This document shows, in pieces, positions 21,406 through 62,154 of a stretch of DNA of 64,000 bases. Origin of the DNA: Methylocystis echinoides. Its GTDB lineage: Bacteria; Pseudomonadota; Alphaproteobacteria; Rhizobiales; Beijerinckiaceae. Made by a program: the position numbers and the translations under genes. Under the pieces are notes generated by a model, which was given only the letters and a program-made list of their open reading frames with translations, was not told where the DNA came from and searched no databases. Each line of letters starts with the position of its first letter. The stretch's first letter is position 1. The DNA lies in NCBI RefSeq assembly GCF_040687965.1, contig NZ_CP156084.1, positions 510,501 through 574,500 on the forward strand. The letters are read 5' to 3'.

Positions 21406-21435
21406 GGCCTCCTCCTGTTGACGAGAACGGGCGGC

Positions 21436-21645: not shown

Positions 21646-21679
21646 TTAGTCAAGCGCGCTCGCCGTCGGGCGACTGCCT

Positions 21680-30865: not shown

Positions 30866-32218
30866 CTAGGGAACGTTCTCGAGACAACTCGCCTTGCCGG
30901 CGCGTTTCAAAGCAATAGCTCGCCATATTGCTTCAGCGCTGTTTCTCTGCCCGTCCATGGCGGACATGCGCTGGCCAAGGTCTTTGGCAGCTTTTCCAAA
31001 GCGCTCGCTTTCAACAATTTGCTGGACCGCTTTCTGTATGTTCGCGGCGGTCCATTTACTCCTCGGAATATGAATGCCGGATCCGCTCGCTTCGATATTG
31101 GCAAGATTCACGAATTGCTCAGCCTGGGCGGCCACGCCGACAAGCGGGGTGCCCGAACAGATCGCGGTCTGTAGCGTTCCCTGCCCGCCATGACAGATGA
31201 CGATATCCGCCATTGCATTGACGGCTTCCGCTGGGACAAACTTGTCCGTAATATAAACGTTCTCCCTGTCTCCAAGAACCGATCTCGCCTCATCGATCGG
31301 GCAAACGGACTCCGGTGAAAGAACTACCCCCGACCAGTTTCTGCCGATACCGAAGGTGAATGCCTTGACGATTTCCAGTAACTGGCCTTTCAGGCCGGAA
31401 CTGCCGAGCGTACAAAATAGCCTGAGCTTAGTGGAATCCTGGAATATGTCCCTTATCGGAGCGTCCACGCATGTGTCTTTCTCGGATCGCGAAAACACAG
31501 GACCTGTGAATACGATATCGGAGGAAAAACCGCCCGAACCATAAAAATCCGGAAAATCGTTAACAATTGTGAGATCGGCTTTCAAAAGGTCGAATATGTT
31601 TACGAGAGGCTTTTTCCATCCCACCTGACGCGCCGCCCACAAGATATTCGGTTGCCGCAACGGCGGACAACGCTTCTTTATCGCTCGCGGGACCATCCTG
31701 AAGACGGCTTTTCGAATTGGCGGAGGAAGCAAGTTTCCGAGAGGCGCGTCCTCTGGAACTTCCTTGATCACATCCAACATTTGTTCTGTCGTAAGGGGAA
31801 TGGGTACATAACAGATTCCGAGAATATCTTGCTCCAGCATCCTATAGGCAATGCCCGCCATGGGCCAGAAGCCATAGAGCACCACATTTGGCCGAAGGCG
31901 CTGATATGCTGAAATTTCACCCTCTATCAATGCCTTAGCGAGCGCCTTGTCGCCAATAAAATTACTTTCGGTCATTTTGTAATCGTGGCGCTCTCCAACG
32001 CCTTTCGTTCTCGGCTCGGCGTGATGAATCTTGAACCCGAGGTCGAGAACTTTCTTCTCGAACCGGCTGCCGCGAGAAATGAATATGATGTCGTAGTCAA
32101 TGTCCGCGGGCGCGTATTTTCTCAGACCGAGCGCAATCTCGATGGCGCGGGTTGCGTCCCCGGCGTCTTGGAAGACCGTGCTTATCACAATCCTCACGGT
32201 TTCCTGCGCGCGTTGCAT
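30866..32218 (-). CDS. UGT/MGT-type glycosyltransferase (GT1-like)
   Basis: The 450-residue product has the two-domain GT-B plan: an N-terminal acceptor domain (RIVISTVFQDAGDATRAIEIA) and a C-terminal donor domain with the UGT-like core VICHGGQGTLQTAICSGTPLVGVAAQAEQ near residues 355-383. There is no signal peptide or membrane helix. It is the last gene of the polyketide operon, 30 bases after the DevB-like gene, so its likely job is to glycosylate the lipid or polyketide before export. Donor sugar and acceptor are unknown. Alternatives are macrolide- or sterol-type glycosyltransferases of the same fold. Confidence 0.82.
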   Translation of the reverse strand: MQRAQETVRIVISTVFQDAGDATRAIEIALGLRKYAPADIDYDIIFISRGSRFEKKVLDLGFKIHHAEPRTKGVGERHDYKMTESNFIGDKALAKALIEGEISAYQRLRPNVVLYGFWPMAGIAYRMLEQDILGICYVPIPLTTEQMLDVIKEVPEDAPLGNLLPPPIRKAVFRMVPRAIKKRCPPLRQPNILWAARQVGWKKPLVNIFDLLKADLTIVNDFPDFYGSGGFSSDIVFTGPVFSRSEKDTCVDAPIRDIFQDSTKLRLFCTLGSSGLKGQLLEIVKAFTFGIGRNWSGVVLSPESVCPIDEARSVLGDRENVYITDKFVPAEAVNAMADIVICHGGQGTLQTAICSGTPLVGVAAQAEQFVNLANIEASGSGIHIPRSKWTAANIQKAVQQIVESERFGKAAKDLGQRMSAMDGQRNSAEAIWRAIALKRAGKASCLENVP

Positions 32219-32248
32219 CGGTTCTCTCCGGACCGTTAAGCCATTTAG

Positions 32249-33376
32249 TCAGCGAGAGCCCGCCACGGAGGCCTCGGTCCTTTCATGGGACATCCTTTGC
32301 TTTGCTAGGGGACGTTCGCCAAGAGGAGGAGCAGGGGTTAAGAAATACGCATCTACGCGAAGGCCGATCGGCGCCCTCACATTTGGATCAAGATGAATGA
32401 AGGCTTGAAGGATCTTGGCGTCGAGTTTGTCCGCAGGACGGCCAGTCTGGATTTGCTTTGCGCCCATTCGGGAGGCGACCCGATAGACCGTTCCGCGGAA
32501 CTTTTTGCCAGGAAAAGCATCCGCTAGAATTTCGACGCGTTGCCCAACTTTGACACGCGCGGCGTCCGTCTCGTCCACCTCCGCTCTCACCTGCAAGCCG
32601 TTGATATTCCCGACGATCGCTATCGGGGTCGGAGGCGTCGCAGAGACCGACTCGCCCCCCAAGCGCATTCGACGCAATACGATTCCAGAAATCGGCGACC
32701 TGATGAGGGTTTTATCCAGCAAGGCCGAGGCCAGCGCAACGTTCGCTTTGGCTAGATCAACATGAGCCTGAGCCGCGGCGATATCCTCGCTCCGGGACCC
32801 CGCCTCAATAGCGGCAAGCTTTTCCGCCGCCGCAGCCGCCCGCGCTTTAGCTACGTCCAGATCTGACGCGGCCTTGTCCAACACTGCCTTCGGCGAAACG
32901 CCGCTTTTTACGAGAGGCGCCCGCCGGTCGTATTCCCGGCGAGCGTAGTCGAGACCTGCATGCGCCTCTGAAAGCGCCGCCTGCGCCTCTCGCCGCTGTT
33001 CGGGCCGCGCGCCGTTAACCGTTTTGTCCAATTCCGCCCGGCGCAGCGCCAGTTCGGCGCGCGCCGAGTCCAAACGGGCGGCCTGCTCGGCGTTGTTCAC
33101 GATCGCGATCACCTCGCCGGCCGTCACTTCATCGTTTTCCTCGACGCGCACCTCTCTCAAAATCCCATTAGCTTCGGCGGCGACCTCACGCTCTTCGTTC
33201 AACGGCTCAATGAGACCCGGCGCCACGGCCACGTGCGGCGTGACCTCGGGCGTGGAGGCTCTGGACGAGGTGGCGTTAACGGACGTCGCCTCGGGCGTAC
33301 CTCCAAAGCCGAACCATAAGGCTACCGCTGAGAAGGCAACGACAATAGCGATCGCGGTCCCTTTAGAGAGCTTCAT
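32249..33376 (-). CDS. HlyD/DevB-like periplasmic adaptor of an ABC exporter
   Basis: The 375-residue product has an N-terminal membrane anchor (about 8-25), split biotinyl-lipoyl halves (ANGILREVRVEENDEVTAG near 70-90 and IRSPISGIVLRRMRLGGESV near 225-245) around an alpha-helical hairpin (about 100-215), and a beta-barrel domain. This is the membrane-fusion protein of tripartite exporters and resembles DevB of heterocyst glycolipid export. Its start overlaps the DevA-like gene as ATGA, so the three exporter genes are translationally coupled. The outer-membrane partner is probably the TolC-type protein at 48260-49729. Confidence 0.87.
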   Translation of the reverse strand: MKLSKGTAIAIVVAFSAVALWFGFGGTPEATSVNATSSRASTPEVTPHVAVAPGLIEPLNEEREVAAEANGILREVRVEENDEVTAGEVIAIVNNAEQAARLDSARAELALRRAELDKTVNGARPEQRREAQAALSEAHAGLDYARREYDRRAPLVKSGVSPKAVLDKAASDLDVAKARAAAAAEKLAAIEAGSRSEDIAAAQAHVDLAKANVALASALLDKTLIRSPISGIVLRRMRLGGESVSATPPTPIAIVGNINGLQVRAEVDETDAARVKVGQRVEILADAFPGKKFRGTVYRVASRMGAKQIQTGRPADKLDAKILQAFIHLDPNVRAPIGLRVDAYFLTPAPPLGERPLAKQRMSHERTEASVAGSR

Positions 33377-34095
33377 CCGGCGGATTCCTTTTCGTGCGGC
33401 CAGCGCCGGGGCGCAGTCTCACAGCGCGTGATACGGCCATCCTCTAAATGTATAATACGATCGGCCAAATGAAAAATTCGTGGATCGTGGGTTACGATCA
33501 CAACTGCATGATTTTGTTTCGCCAAAGCACAAAACAGCTGCATCGCCTTCTGCCCGCTCTCTGCATCGAGAGCCGCGGTCGGCTCGTCGGCCATCAAGAT
33601 TGGCGGGCCGGCGGCCATGGATCTCGCTATGGCGACCCTCTGTCTCTGGCCGCCGCTCAATTGAGAAGGATATGAGTCGAGCCGTTCTCCCAGGCCGACT
33701 TTTATCAAGAGGGCGCGCGCCCGCTCCATAGCTTGCTGCTTTCCGACGCCCAGCAGGTCTAGCGCCACCATTACGTTCTCAGTCGCTGTCAGCACAGGGA
33801 ACAAATTATACGCTTGAAACACGAAGCCAAAGTATCTCAACCTCAGCGCCGCGAGAGCCTCGCTGTCGCGTCCCGAAGCCCTCTCACCACAGACGATCAC
33901 CTGCCCCGACGTCGGCTTGAGAAGGCAGCCTAGGATCTGAAGAAGCGTCGTTTTCCCGCTCCCCGACGGTCCCGCAAGCAGCAGGACCTCACCAGCTCGG
34001 ATCTCGATATTGATGTCATGCAGCACGGTAACCTGATGAGGGCCCAATTCGTAAGTATGGGTAATATTCGCCGCAGTGAGGACGGTCTGTGTCAT
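33373..34095 (-). CDS. DevA/MacB-type ABC transporter ATPase
   Basis: The 240-residue single ATPase has Walker A GPSGSGKTT near 42, the signature LSGGQRQRVAIARSM near 145, Walker B ILMADEPTAALD near 165 and the H-loop VTHD near 198. It belongs to the LolD/DevA/MacB group that powers extrusion of lipids and proteins across the envelope. It overlaps by four bases with the permease upstream and with the adaptor downstream. Confidence 0.92.
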   Translation of the reverse strand: MTQTVLTAANITHTYELGPHQVTVLHDINIEIRAGEVLLLAGPSGSGKTTLLQILGCLLKPTSGQVIVCGERASGRDSEALAALRLRYFGFVFQAYNLFPVLTATENVMVALDLLGVGKQQAMERARALLIKVGLGERLDSYPSQLSGGQRQRVAIARSMAAGPPILMADEPTAALDAESGQKAMQLFCALAKQNHAVVIVTHDPRIFHLADRIIHLEDGRITRCETAPRRWPHEKESAG

Positions 34096-35300
34096 CGGAA
34101 GACCTTGACCGGATCGATGGCGGTTATTTTGCTAAGAGAAACAACGGATGCGCCGACGCACATTGCAATAGAAAGACATCCGATGAGAATTCCGAGCCAT
34201 ATTGGAACTTCTGGCCGGGAGCTTAAGTTTTCGGCAACAACTACGATGATGGCGACAATGGTCAGCCCCAGGACGCTTCCCAAAGCTCCGCCAATTACCG
34301 CCTGCTGGATAACGATTGAGTAAAGATATGACCGAGGCCCGCCAATCGCTCGAATGACCGCATATTCAGGGAGCCGATCCATGGTGCTGGCGTAGAGCGT
34401 CTGCGCAGAGATCACAATGCCAACCAGCAGCGCGAGAAGCGCGGAACCGATGATCGTAGCGCCAGCGCCTGTGGTAAAAAGCCAATACATCTCGCTCCGC
34501 CGCGAGAACTCAGACGCGGTCAAAACGTCGACATCAGGCATCTTATTCTTTAACTTTACAATAACATCGTTTTGATCGGCGCCGTTCTTCAGCTTTATCA
34601 GCACATATGTAATGTCATTATCCGACTTACGAAGAAATAGGCGTCCATTTCGCAAAGACGTAAACACATAGGGCGATTGCGTGAATGTACGCATTCCACG
34701 GGTAAAGCCGACGACTCGAGCGCGCCGATCGTTTATTTCTGCGACTTGATTGAGCCCGGTTACCCCTAATTTCTCCGCATACAGCTCATCGATAACGACC
34801 CCGTCCGGGCTGGCTAGCGCTTCTCTCACGCTTGGACCCTTCGCCAAACTCGGAGGAAGCCCCATCTCCGCATCTGGGTCAACCCCGATAACGATGACGG
34901 TCTGCCGCAAACCATCGCTCCTCTGCCAGAAGCTAAAGTGCAAAAAATACGATTCGGCCCGCTCGATTCCAGGCACTGAAAGAGCCTGAAATCTTCTTCG
35001 TTCCTGGATTGGCGTTGCGAGATCAACGCTCAGCGCGCGCGGGGCGGCTATCCACAGATCCGCGCCCGCCTGATCGACGATTATGGAAGTCGTATGCATG
35101 AAATTTAAAAGCATTCCCAACTGAATTCCGATGAGAAGAGTTGAGAAGGCGATGCCGACAAGAGTGACTGCAAAACGTAGCCGATCGTGAATCAGGTTAC
35201 GCCATGCAATTAATATCGTCAGACCCAGGCGGATTCTGCTCGAACGGTCGGGCCGATCGAATCCGAGGGGGACGGTCCGTGCGCTACTCCGGGATGACAT
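34092..35300 (-). CDS. DevC/MacB-type ABC permease
   Basis: The 402-residue permease has the FtsX/MacB/DevC layout: one helix near residues 38-62, a large periplasmic domain (about 70-270), then three helices near 280-390. The C-terminal domain contains DRLPEYAVIRAIGGPRSYLYSIV, typical of DevC. With the coupled ATPase and adaptor it makes a three-gene exporter of the heterocyst-glycolipid class. It lies 59 bases after an unknown small gene. Confidence 0.9.
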   Translation of the reverse strand: MSSRSSARTVPLGFDRPDRSSRIRLGLTILIAWRNLIHDRLRFAVTLVGIAFSTLLIGIQLGMLLNFMHTTSIIVDQAGADLWIAAPRALSVDLATPIQERRRFQALSVPGIERAESYFLHFSFWQRSDGLRQTVIVIGVDPDAEMGLPPSLAKGPSVREALASPDGVVIDELYAEKLGVTGLNQVAEINDRRARVVGFTRGMRTFTQSPYVFTSLRNGRLFLRKSDNDITYVLIKLKNGADQNDVIVKLKNKMPDVDVLTASEFSRRSEMYWLFTTGAGATIIGSALLALLVGIVISAQTLYASTMDRLPEYAVIRAIGGPRSYLYSIVIQQAVIGGALGSVLGLTIVAIIVVVAENLSSRPEVPIWLGILIGCLSIAMCVGASVVSLSKITAIDPVKVFR

Positions 35301-35359
35301 CGGACCGCCTTACCTACCGCTTGCGTATGAGAAATATTTTGAGGAGGCGCGCCGCTCTG

Positions 35360-35833
35360 TCAGGCGACGCGCTTATTTTGCTTGGGCGAACGGGATCGCG
35401 CGCGCGAGAAAATCGCTCTCAGTCCGGGCGGGATGGCGTCCGCGATACGGTCCTGCGCCCATTGAAGACGCCTGCCCGAATCGGCGCGGCGGCGATCCTG
35501 GCTTGGCAATGCGACAAACCGGCCGATGAATACGACACCAGGGGTCTGCCGATCTCCTAGACCGACCGCGAGCGAGGGCGCGAGCTTCGCAAAGCGAGAC
35601 GGCCCCTCGCTCAACTCGAAAAGCTTCTCTCTGGCCAATTCGTTCGCTAATGCTTGACCCGTCAAGGCGTATAATTTGTAGACCATGCCCCGATGCTTTC
35701 TTTCATTATCCGCGCTCGGCTCCGACTCGAAAAAGCAATAAGCATCATTATACCAAGCATGGCCCTCTAACATCTCGCTCGTCGGGTTCCGCATCCAAGT
35801 GATCTCGATTTCTTCGTCAGGCAGGAAGTACAT
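35360..35833 (-). CDS. Hypothetical protein in the polyketide operon
   Basis: The 157-residue product is not recognised. The N-terminal half is acidic and aromatic (YFLPDEEIEITWMRNP, AWYNDAYCFFE), and the C-terminal half is basic (RDRRRADSGRR, SRARSRSPKQNKR). The ATG at 35833 is chosen because GGAGGTAA lies just before it; the in-frame ATG at 35845 would put that site inside the gene. It sits between the dehydratase-PPTase gene and the exporter permease with gaps of 26 and 59 bases, so it is probably part of the operon. Confidence 0.6.
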   Translation of the reverse strand: MYFLPDEEIEITWMRNPTSEMLEGHAWYNDAYCFFESEPSADNERKHRGMVYKLYALTGQALANELAREKLFELSEGPSRFAKLAPSLAVGLGDRQTPGVVFIGRFVALPSQDRRRADSGRRLQWAQDRIADAIPPGLRAIFSRARSRSPKQNKRVA

Positions 35834-35859
35834 ATTTACCTCCATAACTTGGATAAAGT

Positions 35860-37740
35860 TCAGGTCATGGCGACTTGCTCCGAAGCAGCCACTTGCGTCG
35901 CATATGCAAGGATATAATCTTCGTCACGGAACGTCTGAACCGGATATACGCGGGCGCGCGCCTGATCCATGATTATGATCTCTCCGTTTTCCATGATCTG
36001 CACCGCTTCGAGCGATTTCATCAAACTTCCAATCCCAACTCCAAGGAGCTTGGCGACAGCCTCCTTGGCGCACCATAATTTGGTGCACAAGACGTCGAAC
36101 TCCTCAGGACTGAAAGCTGCAAGCAAGTCCCGCTCACGATCACATATGAATGCTTCCAACACTGCCGCATCTCTGGTTTTAATTTGTTCAATATCCACGC
36201 CCACCGGTTCGCTCTGCGCTATCGCAATCGCACGATCGTTGCAATGCGCTATAGAGATTTTCGGCGCAACGCCCGCGGCGCCTAGGGTTACGCGTGGCGG
36301 TCCGTCGCCATCGTCGGAATTTAGAGGCACGGCCGCCGGATGAAGAAAGTCCTGAGAGAGATCGCTCCTGACCCATTTCCGAGCGGCGTCCTTGGCCACG
36401 ACCCGCCCCAGGAGCCACTGTCGCTGGCGTTCAGGAAAGCGCTTCAAGGCTTTGTATCGCTGAAATTCGACTTCATCCAAGTAATAACGCGCGAGCAACA
36501 TGAGATCGAAACCACGCAAATCCTCGTCCGAAACCATCAAGGATACGCTTTGGGGCGCACTTGGGCCGATTGGCGCGTCTCGACTCAAAAGATAGCGATG
36601 AGGTAAGCGACGGAAGTCAACGATGCGTCGAGGCCATTTGAATTTCCAACTGCGCCAGTCGGCGATCCTCATCCAGACGCCGCCTTGGCCGTCCTGGATC
36701 TCGACATTCGCCTGGAGCATCTTTCCTTGATCGTTTGTAATTTCCAACCGAACCGGCGTGAGCGTGCCGACCGGCGGCGTAGGGCAATAAATTTCCAGCC
36801 TGCCCAATCCAATTGGAAACGCGAAACGTTCATGCGCCAAAGCCCAAACGCCGATGAACTGGCCCACGGCATCCAATAGAGTCGGGCACGCGAGGAGTTG
36901 CGGGCTTCGCGTAAAATCGAAAAGATTTTCCGATGACAAGATCACGAAGTCGCCTATCGCGCCATTGTCTGCAACGATCATTTCGCCATGAAGGCACTGG
37001 AAGCTTGGACCATGAAACATATGCCTTTCGGCGTAAAGCGCCTCGCCAGACTGTGGAAAGGACCGCGGGTTCTCGAACTCTGAGAATTCGAAATCGAGCC
37101 CAACGCAGTAGTCGCTCCCGAACAAGACTGTTGCTTCAATAGCGGGAGCCTTTTGGGCCGGGACGTAAATTGACGTCTTAATCCGCGTTACGCCCGTGGA
37201 AGGGTCTCGACCAACAAAGTCCGCAGCGAAGAAGAGATTTGTGGCGTCAGTGTCTTCAAGCTCGATCCACCGAGTCGCCGTGACATTCTCGAAGCCGAGC
37301 AATCCTTCCCCCGGGGCCAGGCAAGCGGCGGCTTCCGCCATCGCCTCTAGACTCATGGTCATGGGCAATACCGGCAGACACGATGACGCGGGCTTTACTC
37401 CTGGCGCGTGCACAAATGAGTGATCTTCCAGATAGAGATCTCGTTGCAAGCAGAGTCGCCGATCGAATCTTATCGCCTTTCCCGGCTCGTAAAGCTTGAC
37501 CGGCCCCAAGAATGGAAGGATTGGACTTTCATCAAGGGAGTTCTCTGGTTCCAAATCGTCAGGGGCTCCAATGCGCGAGGCCCCGAATCCAGCCGATTCG
37601 AAATCTCCTGTTTGTTGTTCTGCCTCGAGCACCCGGCTCACAAGCGGCGAAGCGCCAACCAGCGAACGACCGGAAATGTCGACGGAGGCGGTCGCATCTC
37701 CGAGGGTCAGATCGGTCGGGTCGTGCTTTCCCATAGTCAT
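35860..37740 (-). CDS. Polyketide dehydratase fused to a phosphopantetheinyl transferase
   Basis: The 626-residue product has two parts. Residues about 85-375 resemble a PKS dehydratase double hot-dog: His107 in YLEDHSF and Asp290 in TLLDAVGQ (DxxxQ) take the catalytic places. Residues about 410-615 are a Sfp-type phosphopantetheinyl transferase, with VGVDIEQI near 513-520 and LWCAKEAVAK near 555-564 supplying the Mg2+-binding Asp516, Glu518 and Glu560. The transferase would activate the ACP of the neighbouring synthase, and the dehydratase would act in trans on its intermediates. The ATG overlaps the type III PKS stop (ATGA). The first 85 residues are not recognised. Confidence 0.8.
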   Translation of the reverse strand: MTMGKHDPTDLTLGDATASVDISGRSLVGASPLVSRVLEAEQQTGDFESAGFGASRIGAPDDLEPENSLDESPILPFLGPVKLYEPGKAIRFDRRLCLQRDLYLEDHSFVHAPGVKPASSCLPVLPMTMSLEAMAEAAACLAPGEGLLGFENVTATRWIELEDTDATNLFFAADFVGRDPSTGVTRIKTSIYVPAQKAPAIEATVLFGSDYCVGLDFEFSEFENPRSFPQSGEALYAERHMFHGPSFQCLHGEMIVADNGAIGDFVILSSENLFDFTRSPQLLACPTLLDAVGQFIGVWALAHERFAFPIGLGRLEIYCPTPPVGTLTPVRLEITNDQGKMLQANVEIQDGQGGVWMRIADWRSWKFKWPRRIVDFRRLPHRYLLSRDAPIGPSAPQSVSLMVSDEDLRGFDLMLLARYYLDEVEFQRYKALKRFPERQRQWLLGRVVAKDAARKWVRSDLSQDFLHPAAVPLNSDDGDGPPRVTLGAAGVAPKISIAHCNDRAIAIAQSEPVGVDIEQIKTRDAAVLEAFICDRERDLLAAFSPEEFDVLCTKLWCAKEAVAKLLGVGIGSLMKSLEAVQIMENGEIIIMDQARARVYPVQTFRDEDYILAYATQVAASEQVAMT

Positions 37741-38954
37741 ACTTTTTCCACGATAAGTCCGGTCGCAGTTAGCCCTGGGCCAAAACCGAGACAGACGACC
37801 CGCGTTCCACGCGTAATCGAAGGTTCCTCTAAAATTTCCTTCAAGATATGAGGCACCGTCGCAGACGACATGTTGCCGTTTTCGACGAAAATAGAACGAC
37901 TGATCGCGACCTGATCATCTGTAAGGCCAAGACTTTCCTGAATGTGCTCCACTATCTTGGGGCCGCCAGGATGAATGGCGAACATGAGCCTCTCTCTCTC
38001 CTGTTCATAATCAAGATTGATGCGTCGGAACAGGTTTTCGACGAAGGGACGAACCGACTGTTTGATGATGACCGGAACCATCACTGAAAGCGTCATATGG
38101 AAGCGTGTAGAGCCCGGCACCCATGTCATGTCGTCTGCGGAATTGGGCAGAAGATGCTCGTTGAAGGCTAGAATTTTTAGCCCGGGCTGGCCACGCTGAT
38201 TTATCCATTCTTCGTCCACGACGGAGTATTTGATGAAGCCGTCAGCAAATAACGTCATCGTTATTATATTTTCAGCCTTGAGCTCAGCTGTATCGCAGTG
38301 GGCGGACAAGAGCTCGCTGTGGACGATATCCACACGATCTTTTGGCGGCGTTACGCTGAACCGGGAAGATGAAAGAAATCCATGGGCCATCTTGATCGCC
38401 GGAAAGGCCCCGTAACAACCCATATGGTAACTGTGCGTTACTGTCGTGTTGAACCATTCCCTGCGAGACACCATCCGCTCGACTGGGCTCGGAGCGAGAT
38501 AGCCGGAGCAGGTTACATGGATGAGGTCGTCCGGCGCTTCATCTACGCCGGAGTACATTTCGTCCAAGCAGTCTCCGACCACTTTCGCATAGCTTCCATG
38601 TCGAGCCTTGATGTCCTTCGGTGTTAGATCTTCATAATTATCAAACAGCTTGAGATAATCGTGCTCCGGTTCGTTCAAGCTGAATTGCCCATTGTCGAAC
38701 TTTATGTCCGAAAGCTTGGGAAAGAAAACCAGTTGCCGACGCTTGATGACGTCCTGAGGAAGCGCGTAATTTAAGAATTTCTGACGTACATCTTTGTAGA
38801 CGCTGGAGAACTCGACTCCATCCTCGTGCTCCCGCTTTCGGAATTGAGACTTCGCAAATGCGTAGGCCGAAATTTCCAAGCTCATGCCTTGGGGGGTCGG
38901 GTCAGCGAGCCGGATTGGCGTGAACCCTGTCAGAATGGGAGCAAATTGAGACAT
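37737..38954 (-). CDS. Type III polyketide synthase (chalcone/alkylresorcinol-synthase-like)
   Basis: The 405-residue product has the thiolase-fold catalytic triad of type III synthases: Cys180 in HSYHMGCYGAFPAIKMA, His328 in FAIHPGGPKI and Asn361 in VENGNMSSAT. The C-terminal GFGPGLTATG loop is the family signature. Such enzymes load a CoA- or ACP-bound acyl starter, extend it with malonyl units and cyclise to resorcinols or pyrones. It lies 34 bases after the type I synthase and overlaps the dehydratase-PPTase gene, so it probably takes its starter from the type I synthase. Product class is inferred. Confidence 0.85.
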   Translation of the reverse strand: MSQFAPILTGFTPIRLADPTPQGMSLEISAYAFAKSQFRKREHEDGVEFSSVYKDVRQKFLNYALPQDVIKRRQLVFFPKLSDIKFDNGQFSLNEPEHDYLKLFDNYEDLTPKDIKARHGSYAKVVGDCLDEMYSGVDEAPDDLIHVTCSGYLAPSPVERMVSRREWFNTTVTHSYHMGCYGAFPAIKMAHGFLSSSRFSVTPPKDRVDIVHSELLSAHCDTAELKAENIITMTLFADGFIKYSVVDEEWINQRGQPGLKILAFNEHLLPNSADDMTWVPGSTRFHMTLSVMVPVIIKQSVRPFVENLFRRINLDYEQERERLMFAIHPGGPKIVEHIQESLGLTDDQVAISRSIFVENGNMSSATVPHILKEILEEPSITRGTRVVCLGFGPGLTATGLIVEKV

Positions 38955-38988
38955 AGTGCTTTCCTTTTCCTGCTTCTTGCCTTTGCAG

Positions 38989-44900: not shown

Positions 44901-46584
44901 CCGATCGCACGGCTTCTTCCGTAAAGAGGTAGGCCGTGCCCATCAAGACGCCCACAGCCATGCCGCGCTCGACAAGCGGCGCCGCCAGAATCGAAACCAT
45001 GGCCGCAGAAATCTCGTCGTGGACCCCGCCTGCAAAAAGAATTCGAAACGACCCCGGGTCTTTGACGTCGGAAGCGAGGAGGACCTCCAACGCCGACTCC
45101 CACAAGATAAAGCTCGAGCGTGGTCCTGTGTGGCCGCCGCACTCGCTGCCCTCGAAGATGAAATTCCGGGCGCCTTCGTTGATGAAGCCCTGAAGCAACG
45201 CGGGCGAAGGAACATGTAAGTACGTACTAACGCCGAGTTCCTCCATCTCCCTGGCTTGGCTGGGCCGCCCGCCTGCGATGATGGCGTAAGGCGGCTTGAT
45301 CTCCTTGATGGCTTCCATCTGCGCCTGGCGCAATTCCAGTGGGAGAAAGCCGAGCATGCCGACGCCCCAAGGCTTTCCGCCCATGGTCTCCCGCGCTTTC
45401 AGCAGCAACTCTCTCGCTTGCGGTCCCGGCATGACGGCGAGCGCAAGGAAGGGAAGCGCGTCAGCCTCTGATACGGATTTGGCGAAAGGCGCGACATCGC
45501 TTACGCGCGTCATCGGACCCTGTAGGATCGGGTAGCGCACGCCATGCGCCTTCGCCAGGGCGGATTCGGGCGCCAATGGCTTCAGCTCCGCCGCCTGCCG
45601 AATTCTCTCTTCAGCCCCTGAGCGAATCGCTTGAATGATCCGCCCAGTCGTGCCGTAGCGACGCGCGAGGGGAGCCGCCAAGGCGATGTCCTGTCCAAGC
45701 GGGATGATCGGGTCATGATCGTCTGCGAGCTTCGCCTCGAGAGATTGGCGCCAATCCTCGCCGCGCGCGCAGGCCAGTTCGAGCTCCTTGAACTTGCTCC
45801 TGCCGTGCCGCGCGGAAATTCTGAAAAGATCGTCGTCTCGTCCCAGAACGACTGATTCGCTTCCATCGAAGTCCGGCAGCTTCTTTCCTCTCAGGAACCA
45901 GGGACCTTCCTCAGAAAGCCACAGCTGCTCGGCGAGAACCCAGCCCTTGGCGCCTGCTACAAGAGTGGCGGCCGCGACACGCGGACCGACGCCGCCTCTG
46001 ATCCAATAAGGAATTCGAACGAGCCCTCGAAGCTCCTGCGCCAAGATGTACGACGCCGTCTTGCTGACGCGTCCGGCAACCTCGCTGCCGTTTGCGATGA
46101 CGCCATCATAACCCGCAGCGTCAGCCATCACAGCAGACTTCGCGTCGCTCGCTTCGACGACGACGCGATCCGCAAGTCGTCGCGCGGCGCAGAGCAACTC
46201 CGCTGTTGGCTCCTCTCTTCCGCCGATCAGCAACAGGGGGACTTTGAAAGGCAGCGTCTCGGCCAGCCGGTCCATCCCGCGGGCCGGCAAACCGAGCGTA
46301 TCCCAGCGCACGCCCCACGACGCTGCGCCGATCGCGTCTCTCAATCTTACGATCTCTCTCTCGACCGCAGACCGGTTCTGACGGAAGCCGAGGTCCAAAA
46401 TTCCAACTGCGCCAGCGCGTGCGGCTGCAATGGCGATCGTGGCGTCGAGCTTATGGCTCGGCGTGAGCGCTAGAACCGTTTCCATGGCTACTCCCGAATC
46501 CGCGACGCGCGGGACGCAACTCGGCGCCGGGCGATAACCTGTTTCGAGATTACTGGGCCGACCAAAAGACTTCGCTAATGCCAT
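38989..46584 (-). CDS. Iterative type I polyketide/lipid synthase: NMO-like, KS, AT, ACP, KR
   Basis: The 2531-residue product contains, in order: a region with one clear FMN-type NMO/PfaD-like barrel (about 345-600, with SECGGHTGPRS) preceded by a second, degenerate barrel-like region (about 34-290); a ketosynthase (712-1165) with Cys911, His1046 and His1086; an acyltransferase (about 1283-1600) with Ser1384 in GHSFG and His1489; a Pro/Ala-rich linker; one ACP (about 1886-1960) with Ser1917 in LGIDSIKRIEI; and a ketoreductase (about 2000-2520) with Tyr2430 and Asn2434. The single ACP points to iterative use. The ACP and KS are of the Pfa/HglE/enediyne-PKS kind. Dehydratase is supplied by the neighbouring fusion. 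Start 46584 has GGAG upstream; ATG 46485, with GGGAG upstream, is equally plausible. Confidence 0.9.
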   Translation of the reverse strand: MALAKSFGRPSNLETGYRPAPSCVPRVADSGVAMETVLALTPSHKLDATIAIAAARAGAVGILDLGFRQNRSAVEREIVRLRDAIGAASWGVRWDTLGLPARGMDRLAETLPFKVPLLLIGGREEPTAELLCAARRLADRVVVEASDAKSAVMADAAGYDGVIANGSEVAGRVSKTASYILAQELRGLVRIPYWIRGGVGPRVAAATLVAGAKGWVLAEQLWLSEEGPWFLRGKKLPDFDGSESVVLGRDDDLFRISARHGRSKFKELELACARGEDWRQSLEAKLADDHDPIIPLGQDIALAAPLARRYGTTGRIIQAIRSGAEERIRQAAELKPLAPESALAKAHGVRYPILQGPMTRVSDVAPFAKSVSEADALPFLALAVMPGPQARELLLKARETMGGKPWGVGMLGFLPLELRQAQMEAIKEIKPPYAIIAGGRPSQAREMEELGVSTYLHVPSPALLQGFINEGARNFIFEGSECGGHTGPRSSFILWESALEVLLASDVKDPGSFRILFAGGVHDEISAAMVSILAAPLVERGMAVGVLMGTAYLFTEEAVRSGAVTQGFQDEALTCRDTALLQSGVGIYTRCAKTAFCDEFDDARRKLLLEGKSENDILMALELLNIGRLRIASKGVVRNETPENGGRYRPVDLETQRRDGLYMMGEVARLRSQKTTMAALHEAVTIGAGKELDAAAGVFAKPTTSVTSASGEPIAIVGMACLMPQANDVETYWRNILLGVDTIREVPPDRWRMEDYFDPNRGVKDKVYSKWGGFLEDIAFEPAAFGIPPASLSSIEPVQLLALYVAKRALQDAGFEQRPFPRDRTATIFASGAMNDLGTEYVFRTLLAKFLPRVEGISKEAAAQIKSSLYTQDLPNWTSHSFPGFLGNVVAGRVANRLDLRGANFTVDAACGSGLAALEVGVRQLRHHSADVALVGAVDATNGPVGFMSFAQTLALSPRGRCRPFDESADGIALGEAIAAVVLKRLSDAERDGDHIYAVIKGVGSSSDGRSRTLTAPSSQGQVLALQRAYEDAGVDIGSVTLIEAHGTGTVLGDRSEVEALSMAFPASQSAQKTCAVGSVKSMIGHTKIAAGLASIIKASLALDQRVLPPTIGVERPLPQFEPSPFYVNTETRPWITRPADQPRRCGVSAFGFGGTNFHTVLEEYQGEYREHDARDLNPRNAEIFTLCRSTRADLENAATTLLRAASETSQPSLAQLAYSWHLDEAKARPKNGGQVFHLSIIATSADDLKTKLRSFSDESNGGKPAPGVYFCDKTNIEASGKVCFLFPGQGSQQLNMLRDLVTSRRASHTLFERADALLEKSLSRPLSSYIFPPPALSKVEADRQKSELNDTRIAQPALGVIELAAYDLLSEFGLRPHFLAGHSFGEYVALCVAGAMSREELIRLSEARGRISAKAGGGQKMAMAAVNAAEARVAEAIAGPSLAVEIASLNAPDQTIIAGASEAIEEAIKAFDKENVRAMRLAVTAAFHTQAMGASLGELVDVLDRIDVKTPATPVFSNTIGKRFPDEPQAIKTLLGRHLVEPLRFVDEIQELYDEGARVFVECGPGVVLSRLTDNILGKRPHATLSLDVAGRPGWQQLAHVLAQCVTLGLPVNLDIWFRNRGLAPVGLEEALQRARASTNPPQLAWRVNGGRAEPWYAAKTSATGRKRHSELAPAKREDQRPEPAPSIPSERPANPASNGVIYKFDRRSKVQTDEQSHRPAAPPPTAPNIALSPTSFGAEVQSNLSSLIDLQRQQQETLWRFMEFQERLMSSGLSHSSPAAFAASAAAASLSTEAAPLPVRAATTSEPLQRAAEPPAALARRIVPPAPVLPKFVTSPSKVEPKTQVQALNGTAAPTPERRGPEPAARTPKPAEAPALPPTPQFKNDLIRVVAERTGYTEEMLDLDAHVEADLGIDSIKRIEIFSELKDHYPFMEGRDQETVFEELSNLKTLSAVVAWYDSLRSADKAGGSETGKKSPTPSQSSPEATESSNMQALAHDARRYAVIPLSAPLGADEQQELLSSDRVLLAIGAPETMSSHFRAALAARHCQFVEISAAGETKMVGANRAEVDFSSIDGVKKLSALLHDQGKRVGAIANFAMGGAEATQFEAARRLFLLLKAFESDLRSDKRGNWLLNITALDGHFGLRRTQRFGVLPAGTLGVAKTAAIEWPEVTVKCLDVDPDIDPNSLVEHAIREITSGDRATEVGFTADGRFVLDLKPDSGEDQNLSNLSLERNSVLLVTGGAYGITSDIVKAFASKFKPIIILTGRSRLSEPESPETTALKNVEELRKFLIEDMRAGNPKIKPVEIERALQRILKNREISRNLDEMRLAGARVEYHSIDLRDKQAFSKLIASIYESHGRIDGVLHGAGVVDDKLIRDKQLQSFDEVFSTKVVPAMVLAENLKPETLKFFVFFSSIAGRFGNAGQADYSAANEVINKLSGRLRVDWPHVQTVAINWGPWDGGMVRQELRAFFAAKDIYPIGLEEGTQRCLEELQYGADGPAEIVVTSSLDEIVKLTTRLKAPASAELTV

Positions 46585-46629
46585 TCCATATTCTCCAAAC
46601 CATCGGTGACGCCTTCAAGAAACGTGCCG

Positions 46630-48259: not shown

Positions 48260-49729
48260 ATGAAGAAACCGACGAAGCGTAACTTGTCGTTGGCGATCGC
48301 CCTCGCGCTTCTCGTCTCGACTCCGCGCTCCGCCCCGGCGGAAACGATCGCGCGCGCCCTTGCGCGCGTTTACAGCAGCAATCCTGATCTAAACCAACAA
48401 AGAGCGACGGTAAGGATCAGAGATGAAGACATTGCGCGCGCGTGGTCGGGTCTTCGGCCTATTGCAAAACTCGAGGCCGGAGCGGGGGCCCAGCGAACTG
48501 ACCTCAAACTCGGCTTTCCGCCAGTGCGGTCGCCGATTAACGGACAGTTCGTCACCTTGAGAAACCCTGCTACGGGACAGCCCTTTTCGTACTCGACCAA
48601 TTTCGCAGCCTATCCACGGGATGTGAAGGTCTACGTCTCGCAGCCGCTGTTCGACGGGGGCCGTACTGAAAACGCAGTACATCAGGCTGAATCGGGAGTC
48701 TTCGCCGCACGTTCGGTTGCCGATCTCTCCGAGCAGTCGATCTTGCAGGACGCAGCGAAAGCCTACATGAATGTCTTGCGCGACACGGCTGTGCTCTCTT
48801 TGCGCAAGAACAATATTTCAATTCTGCAAACTCAACTCAATTACACGCGTCGCAAAGTGCAAGAGGGGGATCTCACCAGCACCGACGTAGCTCAGGCGGA
48901 AGCATCGCTCGCGCAAGCCCGCTCGGATTTTTTTGGGGCGCAGGCTCAGCTCAAGAACAGCCTGGCAATTTACGAGCAGATCATTGGAGAGCCGCCCGGA
49001 CGGCTCGAGCCCGCGAGTTCGGTTGAACGGCTCCTGCCGAAGTCTGTCGACGAAGCAATTGAGCTCGCCCTAAACACACATCCGTCCCTGGACGCAGCTC
49101 GGCATCAAGTAGACGCGGCGGAGTTCGCAGTGAATGCGGCGTGGAGCAATCTTGCGCCGCGGCTTTCGCTCGATGGGCAGGTCTCACAGCAATATGATTC
49201 GCTATTGTCCCTGCGCGAGGCGGTGCTCGCAGCGCCTAACTCCAGGGAATTCAACGCCGCGGTGCGCCTGAACTTGGATGTTCCACTCTACCAACGCGGC
49301 GAGGAGTACGCCGCCATTCGGCAGGCGAAGGAAACCCTGGGGCGCGAGAAGCTGAATTTCGACTCACAAAGGCGAAACGTTCGCGCGGCGGTCATTTCGA
49401 GCTATGGCCAACTCAACACCGCCAGATCTCAAACCGCAACGGATGAATTGGCGATAAAAGCTGCCGAGGCGGCGCTGCGCGGCGTTCGCGAAGAAGCAAA
49501 AGTGGGGGCCCGCACCACCCTGGACGTGCTCAACGCCCAGCAAGCTCTGCTCAACGCCCGCGTCAACCTTATCATTTCGCAGCGGGATCGTGTTGTCGCC
49601 TCCTACGCTGCGCTCTCTGCGATCGGGAAGCTTTCAGCAACAACGTTGCAACTGGACGTCCAGCTCTACGATCCATCCGCGCATTTTGAACGGGTGAAGA
49701 ATAAGATGATTGGAACGGACGCAGATTAA
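48260..49729 (+). CDS. TolC-family outer-membrane efflux protein
   Basis: The 489-residue product has a signal peptide (MKKPTKRNLSLAIALALLVS, with cleavage near APAET), followed by two repeats of the TolC plan: ETIARALARVYSSNPDLNQQRA with an outer strand and helices to about 250, then SVDEAIELALNTHPSLDAARHQVDAAE and its helices. The fold is a trimeric outer-membrane channel with a periplasmic tunnel. It is likely the exit duct of the DevCAB-like exporter encoded nearby. The start at 48260 follows a weak ribosome site. It converges with the GMC oxidoreductase with 10 bases between. Confidence 0.9.
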   Translation: MKKPTKRNLSLAIALALLVSTPRSAPAETIARALARVYSSNPDLNQQRATVRIRDEDIARAWSGLRPIAKLEAGAGAQRTDLKLGFPPVRSPINGQFVTLRNPATGQPFSYSTNFAAYPRDVKVYVSQPLFDGGRTENAVHQAESGVFAARSVADLSEQSILQDAAKAYMNVLRDTAVLSLRKNNISILQTQLNYTRRKVQEGDLTSTDVAQAEASLAQARSDFFGAQAQLKNSLAIYEQIIGEPPGRLEPASSVERLLPKSVDEAIELALNTHPSLDAARHQVDAAEFAVNAAWSNLAPRLSLDGQVSQQYDSLLSLREAVLAAPNSREFNAAVRLNLDVPLYQRGEEYAAIRQAKETLGREKLNFDSQRRNVRAAVISSYGQLNTARSQTATDELAIKAAEAALRGVREEAKVGARTTLDVLNAQQALLNARVNLIISQRDRVVASYAALSAIGKLSATTLQLDVQLYDPSAHFERVKNKMIGTDAD

Positions 49730-49739
49730 GTCGTCCGGT

Positions 49740-51401
49740 TTACTGATCCGCCCCACGGCTCGACAAGGTCGCCGCCAGCCGGTTGGCGAGCGCCATAATT
49801 GTTAAGGTCGGGTTCTTCTCGCTGAGATCCGGCATGACGCCCCCGTCACATAAGTACAGGTTCGGGTGGTCGAAGCTGCGGCATCCGCGGTCCACGACGC
49901 CGTCATGTGGGTTGGCGGCCATTCGGCAGACGCCCGCATAGTGTATTCCAAGACCAGGCAGCGTATCGGGCGCGGCGTTGACGCCAATCGCAAAAGCGGC
50001 TTGCAATATCTTTCGGCCCCACAGCTGCATTGATTTCTGCATCTGCAAATCCTCGTTGCTCCAGGCGTAGTCCACATCGACCTGCGGCACGCCGTAACGG
50101 TCGCATTTATTACTTCGGCGTAAGCGGTTGCTGATGCGCGCGCTCGGTTTGCCCATGAAGAACAGACCGACATAGGTGGAAAACAGCCAACGCGCGAGCA
50201 GGTCTTTCAGGCGCGCCGGAAAAACCGCCATGCCGTCCAGATAAAATGGAAGCCAGGGCAACATGTGTCCGCACTGGATCTGAAAGCCGCCACGAAAATC
50301 GGAGGCGCTGAACAGAAAACGCGGGATCAGAAGGTGATCGCCGATTCCGGGGGGATCGGCGGGCTTGCTGCCGCCAAGCCACCAGAGCGAACCGGAAGCG
50401 CGGGCGCGCACATGGTCCTGCAAATAGCAGCCGACCAGCCCCGAGGAATTGGCGAGCCCGTTTGGCCACGCGTCGTCCGTCGAATTGAGAAGGAGGCGGG
50501 AAGTCTCCAATGCGCCAGCGGCGACGATAAATGTATCGGCCAGCACCTCGAAGCGCTCTTGTTTCGACGTGTCCAGGCATTCGACGGCTTCGATACGCGA
50601 AGAGCCCGAAGCGCGCCTCAGGCGCAAGACCTTCGTTTCGTACGCAATGCGAAAGTTGCGCCGTCCCTCGATGAGCGGCAGCAATCGGCTCGAGAATTTG
50701 TAGATACTGCCGGTTCGGCAACCGTGCACGCAGTGGCCGCACTGCAAACAGACATTAGGCGCATCGGCCCGGGTCTCGATCGCCTTTCGGGTTGGAATCG
50801 CCCGTAGCGGCAGGAGACGCATCCTTCGGACTGCCGACTGCATCGCCACATCTGGGCGCCGTAGCGGAAGCGGCGGAAGAAAATCGCCGTCGGGAAGAGC
50901 GGCAAGGTTCTCATGTGAGCCGCACACGCCGATCAATTGCTCAATTTCCGTATAGTGAGGCGCGAGGTCGTCGTAATCGATTGGCCAGTTGATGTCGCCG
51001 TCGCCAAAATCACGCGCGCGGAAGTCCCGCGGCGACATTCGCAATGCGACGCCACCCCACAGATTTTGCTTGCCGTTGAGCCGGAAGATCTGACGGTTGC
51101 AAAAGACGGCCGCCGCCTCTTGGCTCGTCGAGGCAATGTCAGCCGAAGCATACAGACGGCGCGCCTTCGCATTTGCGTCGAAAAAAACGTCGCTCGGCGG
51201 GTCGTCCCACGATCGCTCCCGCGAAATGCCGAAGTGTTCGTCCTGCGCCGGCGGGAGACCATTGTTGAAGTAATCATCCGTGATGGAGGCCCCCTGCTCG
51301 AGGGAGAGGACGTCGCGCCCGGCGCTTGCAAGTCGATAGGCCAGAATGCCGCCAGCGGCGCCGGCGCCAATGATGCAAATGCCTGTTCGCTCCCGGCGCA
51401 T
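49740..51401 (-). CDS. GMC-family FAD-dependent oxidoreductase
   Basis: The 553-residue product has the FAD-binding GICIIGAGAAGGILAYRLA near its start, a middle CLQCGHCVHGCRTGS cluster and the C-terminal family block CDGGVMPDLSEKNPTLTIMALANRLA. GMC enzymes oxidise alcohols using FAD. The Cys-rich CxxCxxC-type segment resembles a subgroup often found with Fe-S or heme-containing partners. It is the second gene after an extended SDR, with the start at 51401 close to the SDR stop at 51404. It is probably a tailoring enzyme for the nearby polyketide or lipid. Confidence 0.85.
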   Translation of the reverse strand: MRRERTGICIIGAGAAGGILAYRLASAGRDVLSLEQGASITDDYFNNGLPPAQDEHFGISRERSWDDPPSDVFFDANAKARRLYASADIASTSQEAAAVFCNRQIFRLNGKQNLWGGVALRMSPRDFRARDFGDGDINWPIDYDDLAPHYTEIEQLIGVCGSHENLAALPDGDFLPPLPLRRPDVAMQSAVRRMRLLPLRAIPTRKAIETRADAPNVCLQCGHCVHGCRTGSIYKFSSRLLPLIEGRRNFRIAYETKVLRLRRASGSSRIEAVECLDTSKQERFEVLADTFIVAAGALETSRLLLNSTDDAWPNGLANSSGLVGCYLQDHVRARASGSLWWLGGSKPADPPGIGDHLLIPRFLFSASDFRGGFQIQCGHMLPWLPFYLDGMAVFPARLKDLLARWLFSTYVGLFFMGKPSARISNRLRRSNKCDRYGVPQVDVDYAWSNEDLQMQKSMQLWGRKILQAAFAIGVNAAPDTLPGLGIHYAGVCRMAANPHDGVVDRGCRSFDHPNLYLCDGGVMPDLSEKNPTLTIMALANRLAATLSSRGADQ

Positions 51402-51403
51402 TC

Positions 51404-52708
51404 TCAACTCATTCTTTCGCGGAATTCGTCGGAGGCGTAGTAGCAATAATCGAGCAATCTCCTCAACCGACCGAGCGCAGCTTCGGGGCGATCGCCGGTC
51501 CAGTGGAAGCGTCCGCGTGCGTGATCATAACAAGCGCCGGACAAGGCCGTGTCGAGGGCGGCGGCAAGTTCGTGATTCTGGCGGCACGCTGCTAGAATCT
51601 CCGGCAAGCGCGGCAGGAGATGCGTGCGGTGAATATGGCTGCGCGCCAACTCACTGAACAGCAGCAGCGCATCGCGGTTCTCGTCGGTGATGGACGCGGC
51701 AAATCGCAGGTCACTGGGAACGAGGCCGCGGCCCACGAAGTCTGCGATCGTGTCGCGTATGGTCTGGGTCAGAGGCCGCCGCCTGTAGTGCAATTCACAC
51801 GTCGCGCGGTCGGAGCTCCCCCAATAAAACAGGGGTTGCGAGCGCACGAAGTCGCGATGCAAGGGGCTGCGCAGCCACCCGAATGTCAGGGCCGATGCTG
51901 CGTCGAGAGTAGTTACAAGGGCGGATACGAGCCAAAGGGGAGCCCGCGGCGGTCGTCTGATCCCCGTCTGCTCAGACATCAAGTCATAAAGCTGCAGCGC
52001 ATCGATATTCTCTCCGCCCAGGATGTATTGGCCGTGGCCTTCCGTGAGCGCCGCCACATGGGCGCGCGCGACGTCGCGCACGTCGCAGACGCTGTGGCCG
52101 CCGCACGCAACCATGATCGGGAATCGCTTCAGACAGAACCATTGCAGGAGCAAGGCGCTCGAAACTGAGCTGTTTACCGAAGCGCCGGGGCCCAGCATGA
52201 GGCCAGGATTGAGGATCACCACGTTGCGACCGGCGGCGCCCGCCTCGCGCGCCAATTGTTCGCAGGCCACTTTCGCCCGATCATATGCATTGAGGCGCGC
52301 GACGCAGACATGAGCGCGGCCGCTCGTCTCGTTGAAGACCAATGGCTCGAGACTGCCGGCCATCGCTGACATCGACGAGGTGAAGATAACGCGCGCCGAT
52401 GGATTCGAGCTTGAAATCGCGTTGAAGAATATCTTCGTTAGCTCGACATTCTGCGCCAAATATTGGTCTAGCGGCAGATCCGGCTTGAAATTCCTACCGG
52501 CTGCGAAGATCGCGGCCTCACAGTCGGCCAGCGCGTCGGCGACATAGGCGGCCTCATGCAGATCGCCTTCGAGTCGTCGCACCGAGCTTGGGAATTTTGC
52601 GCTGGACCCGCTCCGCACGATAGCGACGACGTCGTGTCCTTCGGCCAACGCGGCCCGAACGATGTGTTCTCCGAGATAGCCGCCGGCGCCCGCAATCGTC
52701 ACCTTCAT
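51404..52708 (-). CDS. Extended SDR / NAD-dependent epimerase-dehydratase-like protein
   Basis: The 434-residue product begins VTIAGAGGYLGEHIVRAAL (GxxGxxG cofactor loop). The usual YxxxK catalytic pair is in AYDRAKVACEQLA near residue 143, preceded by FTSSMSAM. After the Rossmann domain a C-terminal extension (about 300-434) is helical and unrecognised. It heads a two-gene minus-strand unit with the GMC oxidoreductase. Such reductases act on ketones or nucleotide sugars; here a role in lipid tailoring is a guess from context. Confidence 0.8.
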   Translation of the reverse strand: MKVTIAGAGGYLGEHIVRAALAEGHDVVAIVRSGSSAKFPSSVRRLEGDLHEAAYVADALADCEAAIFAAGRNFKPDLPLDQYLAQNVELTKIFFNAISSSNPSARVIFTSSMSAMAGSLEPLVFNETSGRAHVCVARLNAYDRAKVACEQLAREAGAAGRNVVILNPGLMLGPGASVNSSVSSALLLQWFCLKRFPIMVACGGHSVCDVRDVARAHVAALTEGHGQYILGGENIDALQLYDLMSEQTGIRRPPRAPLWLVSALVTTLDAASALTFGWLRSPLHRDFVRSQPLFYWGSSDRATCELHYRRRPLTQTIRDTIADFVGRGLVPSDLRFAASITDENRDALLLFSELARSHIHRTHLLPRLPEILAACRQNHELAAALDTALSGACYDHARGRFHWTGDRPEAALGRLRRLLDYCYYASDEFRERMS

Positions 52709-59679: not shown

Positions 59680-59731
59680 CCCGAGCGTCCTTCCTTCTGT
59701 CGGTCTTCAACCGCGTATGCGTTGCGTCGGT

Positions 59732-62074: not shown

Positions 62075-62154
62075 GTAATTCTCCTGATCGGCCGCGTTGA
62101 GGGGCCGTGCGAACGAATGGAATTGGCGACGCGCCTGCGCCGCGGCTCATGCGC

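Follow-up and report, generated by a model that had tools for sequence, protein, structure and literature searches.

In the genome of Methylocystis echinoides (4.35 Mb), a stretch of 64,000 nucleotides, i.e., positions 510,501 to 574,500 of NZ_CP156084.1 (hereafter the window), was found to carry a gene cluster for a putative exported lipid. Nine consecutive open reading frames (ORFs) of the minus strand span positions 47415 down to 30866 in the ORF list. In 5' to 3' order, they encode a protein of 261 amino acids (aa), a synthase of 2531 aa, a type III polyketide synthase (PKS) of 405 aa, a dehydratase-phosphopantetheinyl transferase (DH-PPTase) of 626 aa and a protein of 161 aa, followed by a permease, an ATPase, an adaptor and a glycosyltransferase. 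The spacings in this order are 45, 34, -4, 14, 59, -4, -4, and 30 bases, where negative values are overlaps. An earlier note on this DNA had described a tightly packed nine-gene cluster with gaps under 60 bases and five genes overlapping or nearly so, and the ORF coordinates agree, the largest spacing being 59 bases. Pfam also agrees with its domain assignments for the synthase, type III PKS, DH-PPTase, exporter and glycosyltransferase, and with the flanking TolC, GMC oxidoreductase and SDR genes (OEP, GMC and Epimerase-type matches). The cluster is very probably an ars-type phenolic-lipid operon, i.e., of the arsABCD kind of Azotobacter vinelandii, with its own envelope exporter (Table 1).

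Table 1. Predicted genes of the cluster and its neighbours, with positions in the window
Feature	Position	Strand	Evidence and remarks
ArsA orthologue, iterative type I fatty-acid/polyketide synthase	38989..46584	-	domain order ER(NMO)-KS-AT-ACP-KR (Pfam)
ArsB orthologue, type III PKS, predicted alkylresorcinol synthase	37737..38954	-	Chal_sti_synt_C; 65% to A. vinelandii ArsB
ArsD orthologue, dehydratase + 4'-phosphopantetheinyl transferase	35860..37740	-	PS-DH + ACPS; 48% to A. vinelandii ArsD
DevC-like MacB-type ATP-binding cassette (ABC) permease	34092..35300	-	MacB_PCD + FtsX (Pfam)
DevA-like ABC ATPase	33373..34095	-	ABC_tran; best NCBIfam model DevA, 244.3 bits, under cut-off 295.8
DevB/HlyD-like periplasmic adaptor	32249..33376	-	HlyD_D23; NCBIfam DevB 111.6 bits, cut-off 129, second-best model
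UDP-glycosyltransferase-like protein	30866..32218	-	EryCIII-like_C + UDPGT (Pfam)
Coiled-coil protein, first operon gene, 261 aa	46630..47415	-	no Pfam match
161-aa protein	35360..35845	-	no Pfam match; between arsD and DevC-like gene
TolC-family outer membrane channel	48260..49729	+	OEP (Pfam); TIGR01844 above cut-off; divergent from operon
GMC oxidoreductase, neighbour, doubtful member	49740..51446	-	Pfam
SDR/epimerase-family protein, neighbour, doubtful member	51404..52708	-	Pfam; HpnA model 139.8 bits, under cut-off 367.65

The window ArsA showed 50% identity to A. vinelandii ArsA across residues 34-2516, and scored 1026.1 against a cut-off of 1010.1 for the NCBIfam PfaA-subfamily model. 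The core is collinear with the order arsA-arsB-(arsC)-arsD of A. vinelandii CA (L047), and its sequence identity and synteny extend to more Azotobacter loci, to Beijerinckia and to other ars loci. ArsA retains the KS Cys/His/His, AT Ser/His, ACP Ser and KR Tyr motifs and ArsD the DH and PPTase motifs, all essentially as in A. vinelandii and five other loci; the catalytic Cys, His and Asn motifs of ArsB are present in an alignment judged by eye. In a scan of named genomes for type III PKS relatives, confirmed by tblastn, the Azotobacter ars loci were among the nearest relatives (best 80 of 87 listed). For comparison, 32 loci (L037-L068) were collected by their type III PKS, some of them cut by contig ends. 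ArsA was matched in 30 of the 32; L064 had no match and L067 only a 27% fragment. In the ArsA and ArsB trees, the window groups with the other alphaproteobacterial ars loci with supports of 100/99 and 100/100, respectively. Its branch in the ArsA tree is long (0.53), and the placement within the alphaproteobacterial clade is not fixed. Judged from these comparisons, the core is an orthologue of the Azotobacter ars system, not merely a relative. The earlier note had called the Azotobacter system related and distinct; the second half of that description was not upheld, as ArsA, ArsB and ArsD are orthologous and stand in the same order.

The scaffold made by the type III PKS can be predicted from one residue, i.e., ArsB Trp281 versus ArsC Gly284 in A. 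vinelandii, which decides between alkylresorcinol and alkylpyrone (PMC6274091). Trp278 of the window ArsB aligns with Trp281. Its closest PDB structures are 3vs9 (2.1e-160) and 3vs8 (1.4e-158), the ArsC G284W mutant and ArsC (PMC6274091), and the mutant thus outscores wild-type ArsC. Across 30 ars loci, this residue of the first type III PKS copy is Trp in 26; the other four (L057-L060), from Paraburkholderia and Burkholderia, carry Glu, and their product is not guessable from the known pair. The second copies have Gly in three Azotobacter, Leu in Beijerinckia (B.) mobilis and Trp in B. indica. No second type III PKS, i.e., the alkylpyrone synthase ArsC, was found in the window cluster. A single copy was present in 26 of 30 ars loci, and two copies in L040, L046, L047, L048 and the plasmid locus L127; ArsC is taken here as a non-defining part of the ars system.

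It is unlikely that the window enzyme makes another scaffold, i.e., an alkylpyrone, or a resorcinol that is tailored to a quinone, in which case the lipid sent out would be something other than a plain alkylresorcinol. The idea draws on the single residue by which ArsC differs from ArsB in cyclisation (PMC6274091) and on the GMC and SDR genes that adjoin the operon. Further, the loci of Methylocystis rosea type add a methyltransferase and a flavin adenine dinucleotide (FAD) oxidoreductase, gene types found also beside planctomycetal alkylresorcinol synthases (PMC10896814). However, the switch residue is Trp, as in ArsB, in five Methylocystis loci and in the first copies of both Beijerinckia loci, a search of the window with the methyltransferase and FAD oxidoreductase of M. 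rosea gave nothing at 1e-3, and neither GMC nor SDR is conserved. In L039, the methyltransferase and FAD oxidoreductase genes follow devB at 19199-21192, which suggests methylated or quinone forms of the lipid in that type of locus.

A heterocyst-glycolipid (hgl) system, with the type III PKS as a bystander, was also considered, in view of the PfaA-like synthase and the Dev-like pump. This is highly improbable, given that ArsA, ArsB and ArsD match arsABCD in both orthology and gene order, and that in Azotobacter ArsA is known to hand its acyl chain directly to ArsB (PMC6274091). The constant presence of the type III PKS is no evidence on this point, because the loci were collected by that gene.

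The distribution of the operon was followed in a sample of 100 relatives, including 38 other genomes of the genus Methylocystis. ArsB at 72% or more was found in seven of them (G005, G006, G016, G017, G019, G028, and G041), with ArsA and ArsD adjoining. The permease gene follows the same distribution. An orthologue of the window DevC (at least 62%) was present in 7/7 ars-positive and 0/93 other relatives, where the best homologue reached 40%. Orthologues of DevC, DevA and DevB follow arsD in the window, L037, L039, L040, L041 and L065, and neither a LolA-like gene nor a full match to the permease of beta- and gammaproteobacterial ars loci was detected in these six. L038 ends short of the exporter position, and the same genome (G028) has a DevC orthologue on another contig.

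This exporter rule was drawn first and then checked on two plasmid loci read afterwards, i.e., pBIND02 of Beijerinckia indica (66.7 kb; L127, NC_010578.1) and pMSC49a of Methylosinus sp. C49 (325 kb; L128, NZ_AP022333.1). The plasmids were used because no further ArsB at E <= 1e-100 was found in 384 other genomes of a class sample or 396 other genomes of an order sample, which share genomes with each other and with the 100 relatives. Both plasmid loci carry the ars core, DevC, DevA and DevB orthologues (DevC 62% and 65%) and a glycosyltransferase, without the beta/gammaproteobacterial module. With the two plasmid loci counted in, a DevC-DevA-DevB-like pump is thus present in 8/8 alphaproteobacterial ars loci whose sequence extends beyond arsD. 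The earlier note had proposed a neighbourhood check of the set of synthase, type III PKS, DH-PPTase and DevBCA-like pump, and the co-conservation of these genes as one block is supported.

Among beta- and gammaproteobacterial ars loci (L042-L063, L066 and L068, n=24), searched with reference proteins from several loci, another module was found. Orthologues of the A. vinelandii-type ATPase and FtsX permease were present in 24/24, A. vinelandii included, and a LolA-like protein (PF17131) in 23/24, the exception being the 7.3-kb contig L053. No DevC or DevB match at 1e-3 was obtained in the 24 loci. In the loci read, the two export modules are therefore distributed mutually exclusively (8/8 versus 24/24), and by their sequences they are distinct and only distantly related. 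A description of them as unrelated was rejected: Pfam places both permeases in the FtsX/MacB superfamily, and a weak permease match (27% at 2e-4) was obtained in two alphaproteobacterial loci.

Replacement of the module appears likelier than divergence, because the alphaproteobacterial pump is closer to Dev-like pumps of ars-free loci than to the beta/gammaproteobacterial module. At 47-51% identity, the window DevA is nearer to the ATPases that belong to Dev-like sets without ars genes in other Hyphomicrobiales than to the beta/gammaproteobacterial ars ATPases (38-42%), and the window DevC is 35-40% identical to ars-free Dev-like permeases. Of the five stretches that hold these nearest other DevC homologues, four (L121, L123, L124, and L125) carry a Dev-like triple and one (L122) DevC alone, and no ArsA, ArsB or ArsD match was found in any of them. 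The same identities make it improbable that one module drifted into two in place, e.g., by exchange of an adaptor or chaperone, a course for which the ABC ATPase and FtsX-type permease in the same position of both sets, the 38-42% identity of the ATPases and the weak permease match would speak. The alphaproteobacterial ars loci form one clade in the ArsA (100/99) and ArsB (100/100) trees, which fits one exchange of the exporter. By the same shared ancestry, the 8/8 do not count as eight independent events. At the Chlorobium type III PKS locus (L067), ATPase-, FtsX- and LolA-like matches of 45, 28, and 27% were found, which suggests that the LolA-type module may be the older ars partner.

A hint that the beta/gammaproteobacterial module works with the ars enzymes comes from A. 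vinelandii. In an algU mutant under encysting conditions, ArsA, ArsB, ArsC and the ABC ATPase Avin_29510 are all listed at 0 (PMC10651043). The tag Avin_29510 lies beside those of arsC (29530), arsB (29550) and arsA (29560), and the protein is for this reason taken as the probable ATPase after arsD.

A glycosyltransferase gene was found in 9/9 alphaproteobacterial ars loci, and its family differs: UDPGT-like in the window, GT2 together with an FkbM methyltransferase in the Methylocystis loci L037, L038, L039, L041 and L065, and GT4 in both Beijerinckia loci and in Methylosinus. The GT4 of A. vinelandii was matched in 16 of the 24 beta/gammaproteobacterial loci. The window protein shows 29% identity over its C-terminal part to one beside a Methylobacter ars locus (L042). 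Galactosides of alkylresorcinols occur in Azotobacter cysts.

Several results weigh against the reading as an ars operon with a dedicated exporter. The operon is present in only 6/38 other Methylocystis genomes. The window glycosyltransferase has no orthologue in the 100 relatives, where the nearest hit reaches 31% and covers the C-terminal part; it thus lies outside the conserved set, and the Methylosinus one lies outside the operon, upstream of arsA on the opposite strand. The window TolC is 59-60% identical to TolC genes of ars loci versus 58-60% to paralogues elsewhere. To these are added the common superfamily of the two permeases and the pump scores, which miss the curated cut-offs for all of DevA, DevB and DevC (best model of the permease DevC, 146.6 bits, cut-off 290.35); only the term DevBCA-like is used here. 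MacB-type pumps also carry drugs and peptides. Some Dev paralogues of Anabaena serve drug resistance (PMC8277102), and the ATPase shares the algU proteome table with dozens of other proteins (PMC10651043).

From the many cargos of MacB-type pumps, the drug-resistance paralogues and the low Dev scores, it could be argued that the pump serves general efflux or self-protection and does not carry the ars lipid. There is little probability in this. The pump keeps the same place and gene order in all readable alphaproteobacterial loci, its DevC orthologue is missing from the ars-negative relatives, the other branch has an alternative module at the same place, and an ATPase with a neighbouring tag is lost with ArsABC in the algU mutant (PMC10651043). 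A pump for the ars lipid stays the preferred assignment.

Besides this pump, other Dev-like genes were seen near type III PKS genes. A second type III PKS, 26-28% identical to that of the window, lies near a DevC-like permease in L117, L118 and L119 (G007, G054, and G033) and in G034:C92. An FAD monooxygenase stands between the two genes in L118 and L119, and L119 has upstream an AMP-ligase, an SDR, a methyltransferase and a class-III aminotransferase. These make up another type III PKS locus with a Dev-like exporter in the same genus and family. In G005, the genes for DevC, the 161-aa protein and TolC occur twice in the genome (contigs C31 and C34), and both copies score equally for DevC and for the 161-aa protein. 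This is either a locus duplication or an assembly artefact.

The operon was likely gained horizontally, given its low G+C, its patchiness and its carriage on plasmids in two relatives. Its G+C is 0.577 versus 0.655 and 0.646 in the surroundings. An ABC-F housekeeping protein places G025 and G037 (94%) closest to the window, ahead of the ars-bearing Methylocystis (86%) and Beijerinckia (84%). These nearest kin, G025 and G037, lack an ArsB orthologue; both have a type III PKS at 51%, and no ArsA match was found within the 32 kb fetched around each. Those two type III PKS loci (L064 and L010) are also without ArsD and exporter matches in the fetched stretch. The window ArsB is 72-73% identical to the ArsB of both the ars-bearing Methylocystis and Beijerinckia. 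Phage records gave no ArsB match at 1e-10. A clean chromosomal insertion site was sought and not obtained: the right-flank gene at 59732-62074 has orthologues (E <= 1e-100) in only 3/100 relatives, and the 19-kb stretch L126 from a relative with such an orthologue matches the window only at 58373-62203.

The most likely product is an exported, perhaps glycosylated, long-chain alkylresorcinol. In the proposed pathway, the PPTase part of ArsD would arm the single ACP of ArsA, and ArsA with the DH of ArsD would iteratively make a fully reduced long acyl chain. The chain length is C22-C26 in Azotobacter. The chain would be handed to ArsB, which would add three malonyl units and close the ring by aldol condensation, yielding a 5-alkylresorcinol. 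A sugar is probably attached by the glycosyltransferase, and the DevC-DevA-DevB-like pump with the TolC channel would carry the lipid out of the inner membrane and on to the outer envelope, occupying in this branch the place of the ATPase/FtsX/LolA-like module. As a wider model, which is favoured by a small measure, the ars operons would themselves encode alkylresorcinol export, for which two solutions would have arisen: beta/gammaproteobacteria would use an ATPase-FtsX-LolA-like shuttle, and on the alphaproteobacterial branch a single replacement would have put a DevBCA-like TolC pump in its place. Interchangeable glycosyltransferases would set the sugar head, and plasmids would spread the package.

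A role of the lipid in resting cells is plausible by analogy. When A. vinelandii encysts, its orthologous operon is induced about 200-fold (PMC4824345). In the Azotobacter cyst, most of the membrane phospholipids give way to alkylresorcinols and alkylpyrones, which also form part of the cyst coat (PMC10651043, PMC4824345), and exospores or lipid cysts are stated in general for type II methanotrophs (PMC4700171). The patchiness of the operon within the genus, however, speaks against an essential role in the formation of resting cells. The lipid could instead be a growth-phase or stress lipid of the envelope, or a secreted bioactive, and this deserves serious weight, at somewhat less than an even chance. 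Vegetative cells of A. vinelandii make some alkylresorcinol (PMC10651043), and the patchiness, the plasmid carriage, the low G+C and the missing ArsB orthologue in the nearest kin point to an accessory trait. On the other side stand the strong induction of the best-studied orthologue and the resting forms of the methanotrophs, by which the resting-cell role keeps its plausibility.

The TolC-family gene probably starts at ATG 48260, i.e., residue 113 of the listed ORF, not at TTG 47924. A signal-peptide-like sequence follows this ATG, and most, not all, matches in relatives start near or after residue 113. With this start, the divergent spacer to the operon is about 845 bp. A TolC gene lies 3.1-3.4 kb beyond devB in five Methylocystis genomes and adjoins devB in the Methylosinus plasmid, where a second large type I PKS is placed beyond it. 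No TolC match was found in the Beijerinckia stretches (L040 and L127).

The GMC oxidoreductase and SDR genes were rejected as pathway members, and the earlier note's linking of them to the locus holds for position, not for conservation. The best GMC match in the 100 relatives is 43% in G077, a genome without an ArsB match, and the SDR has no match there at 1e-40. Homologues of the 261-aa protein (34-35%) stand directly upstream of arsA in L037, L039 and L065, with no match in L040, L127 and L128, i.e., among the loci read it belongs only to those of Methylocystis. Its structure model is a coiled-coil hairpin of two long helices with a mean predicted local distance difference test score (pLDDT) of 66, half of the length being below 70. 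The 161-aa protein has homologues in 6/100 relatives, all of them ars-positive Methylocystis, and its model (pLDDT 43) is unusable.

Promoter-like sites (7 versus 7.0 expected) and terminator-like sites (26 versus 23.0 expected) gave no usable signal. No LysR-type (ArpR-like) Pfam match was found among the 18 window ORFs scanned. ORF 29786-30817, convergent with the operon end, weakly matches a resolvase N-terminal domain and ends in a C-terminal DUF1236 match, and is possibly a mobile-element trace bordering the operon. The AT skew is +0.33 at 10001-12000 and -0.32 at 20001-22000, and all other 2-kb steps are within about 0.13 of zero.

Parts of this system have been reported before. Type P synthases, i.e., secondary lipid synthases, were described in 2011 by Shulse and Allen for A. 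vinelandii and Beijerinckia indica (PMC3098273), and a 2025 study gave counts of type III PKS and phenolic-lipid clusters for methanotroph families and habitats (PMC11964084). A literature search that covered few subscription papers returned none joining type III polyketide synthase and Methylocystis, none joining arsABCD, Azotobacter and ABC transporter, and none joining alkylresorcinol to DevBCA, LolA-like, ABC exporter or lipoprotein-sorting protein. The words transport and export are absent from PMC4824345. The new part here is the export module of ars operons, a pattern that may already be known elsewhere. The result provides concrete candidates for two routes by which a single lipid class may be exported, and A. 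vinelandii, which is genetically tractable, has one of them. It suggests how cyst-type phenolic lipids may leave the cell and that the export part may be exchangeable. A phenolic lipid is further predicted for some type II methanotrophs, where it could matter for survival in drying soils and serve as a biomarker.

Compared with known systems, the window resembles the heterocyst glycolipid system (hgl, devBCA, and HgdD) in that an iterative synthase is accompanied by a MacB-type tripartite pump, here a predicted one, for a lipid of the envelope (PMC8277102, PMC8064123); in the former source, DevBCA with the TolC homologue HgdD exports the heterocyst glycolipids. It differs by the type III PKS, the ArsA-ArsB-ArsD orthology, a pump below the Dev cut-offs and the genetic joining of pump and synthase. 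The hgl gene set (hglC/D/E/A) is not known to include a type III PKS. The heterocyst likeness drawn in the earlier note holds for the type of pump alone.

With the MacAB-TolC family, the window shares a MacB_PCD/FtsX permease, an HlyD-type adaptor and a gene for a TolC-family channel. The ATPase is fused in MacB, whereas in the window it is encoded by a separate gene and is linked to a lipid synthase. Planctomycetota have type III PKS loci with an alkylresorcinol synthase and tailoring genes, i.e., a methyltransferase and an FAD oxidoreductase (PMC10896814). The M. rosea-type ars loci share this pair of genes, after devB. The srs-type loci of Streptomyces likewise consist of a type III PKS with a methyltransferase and an FAD oxidoreductase, and neither of these groups is known to have ArsA or ArsD. 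The closest system is the arsABCD operon of A. vinelandii, a Type P secondary lipid synthase with the same ArsA, ArsB and ArsD order, domains and switch Trp. Unlike it, the window has no ArsC, carries a Dev-like pump instead of the ATPase-FtsX-LolA-like module, and has a glycosyltransferase of another family and two extra small genes.

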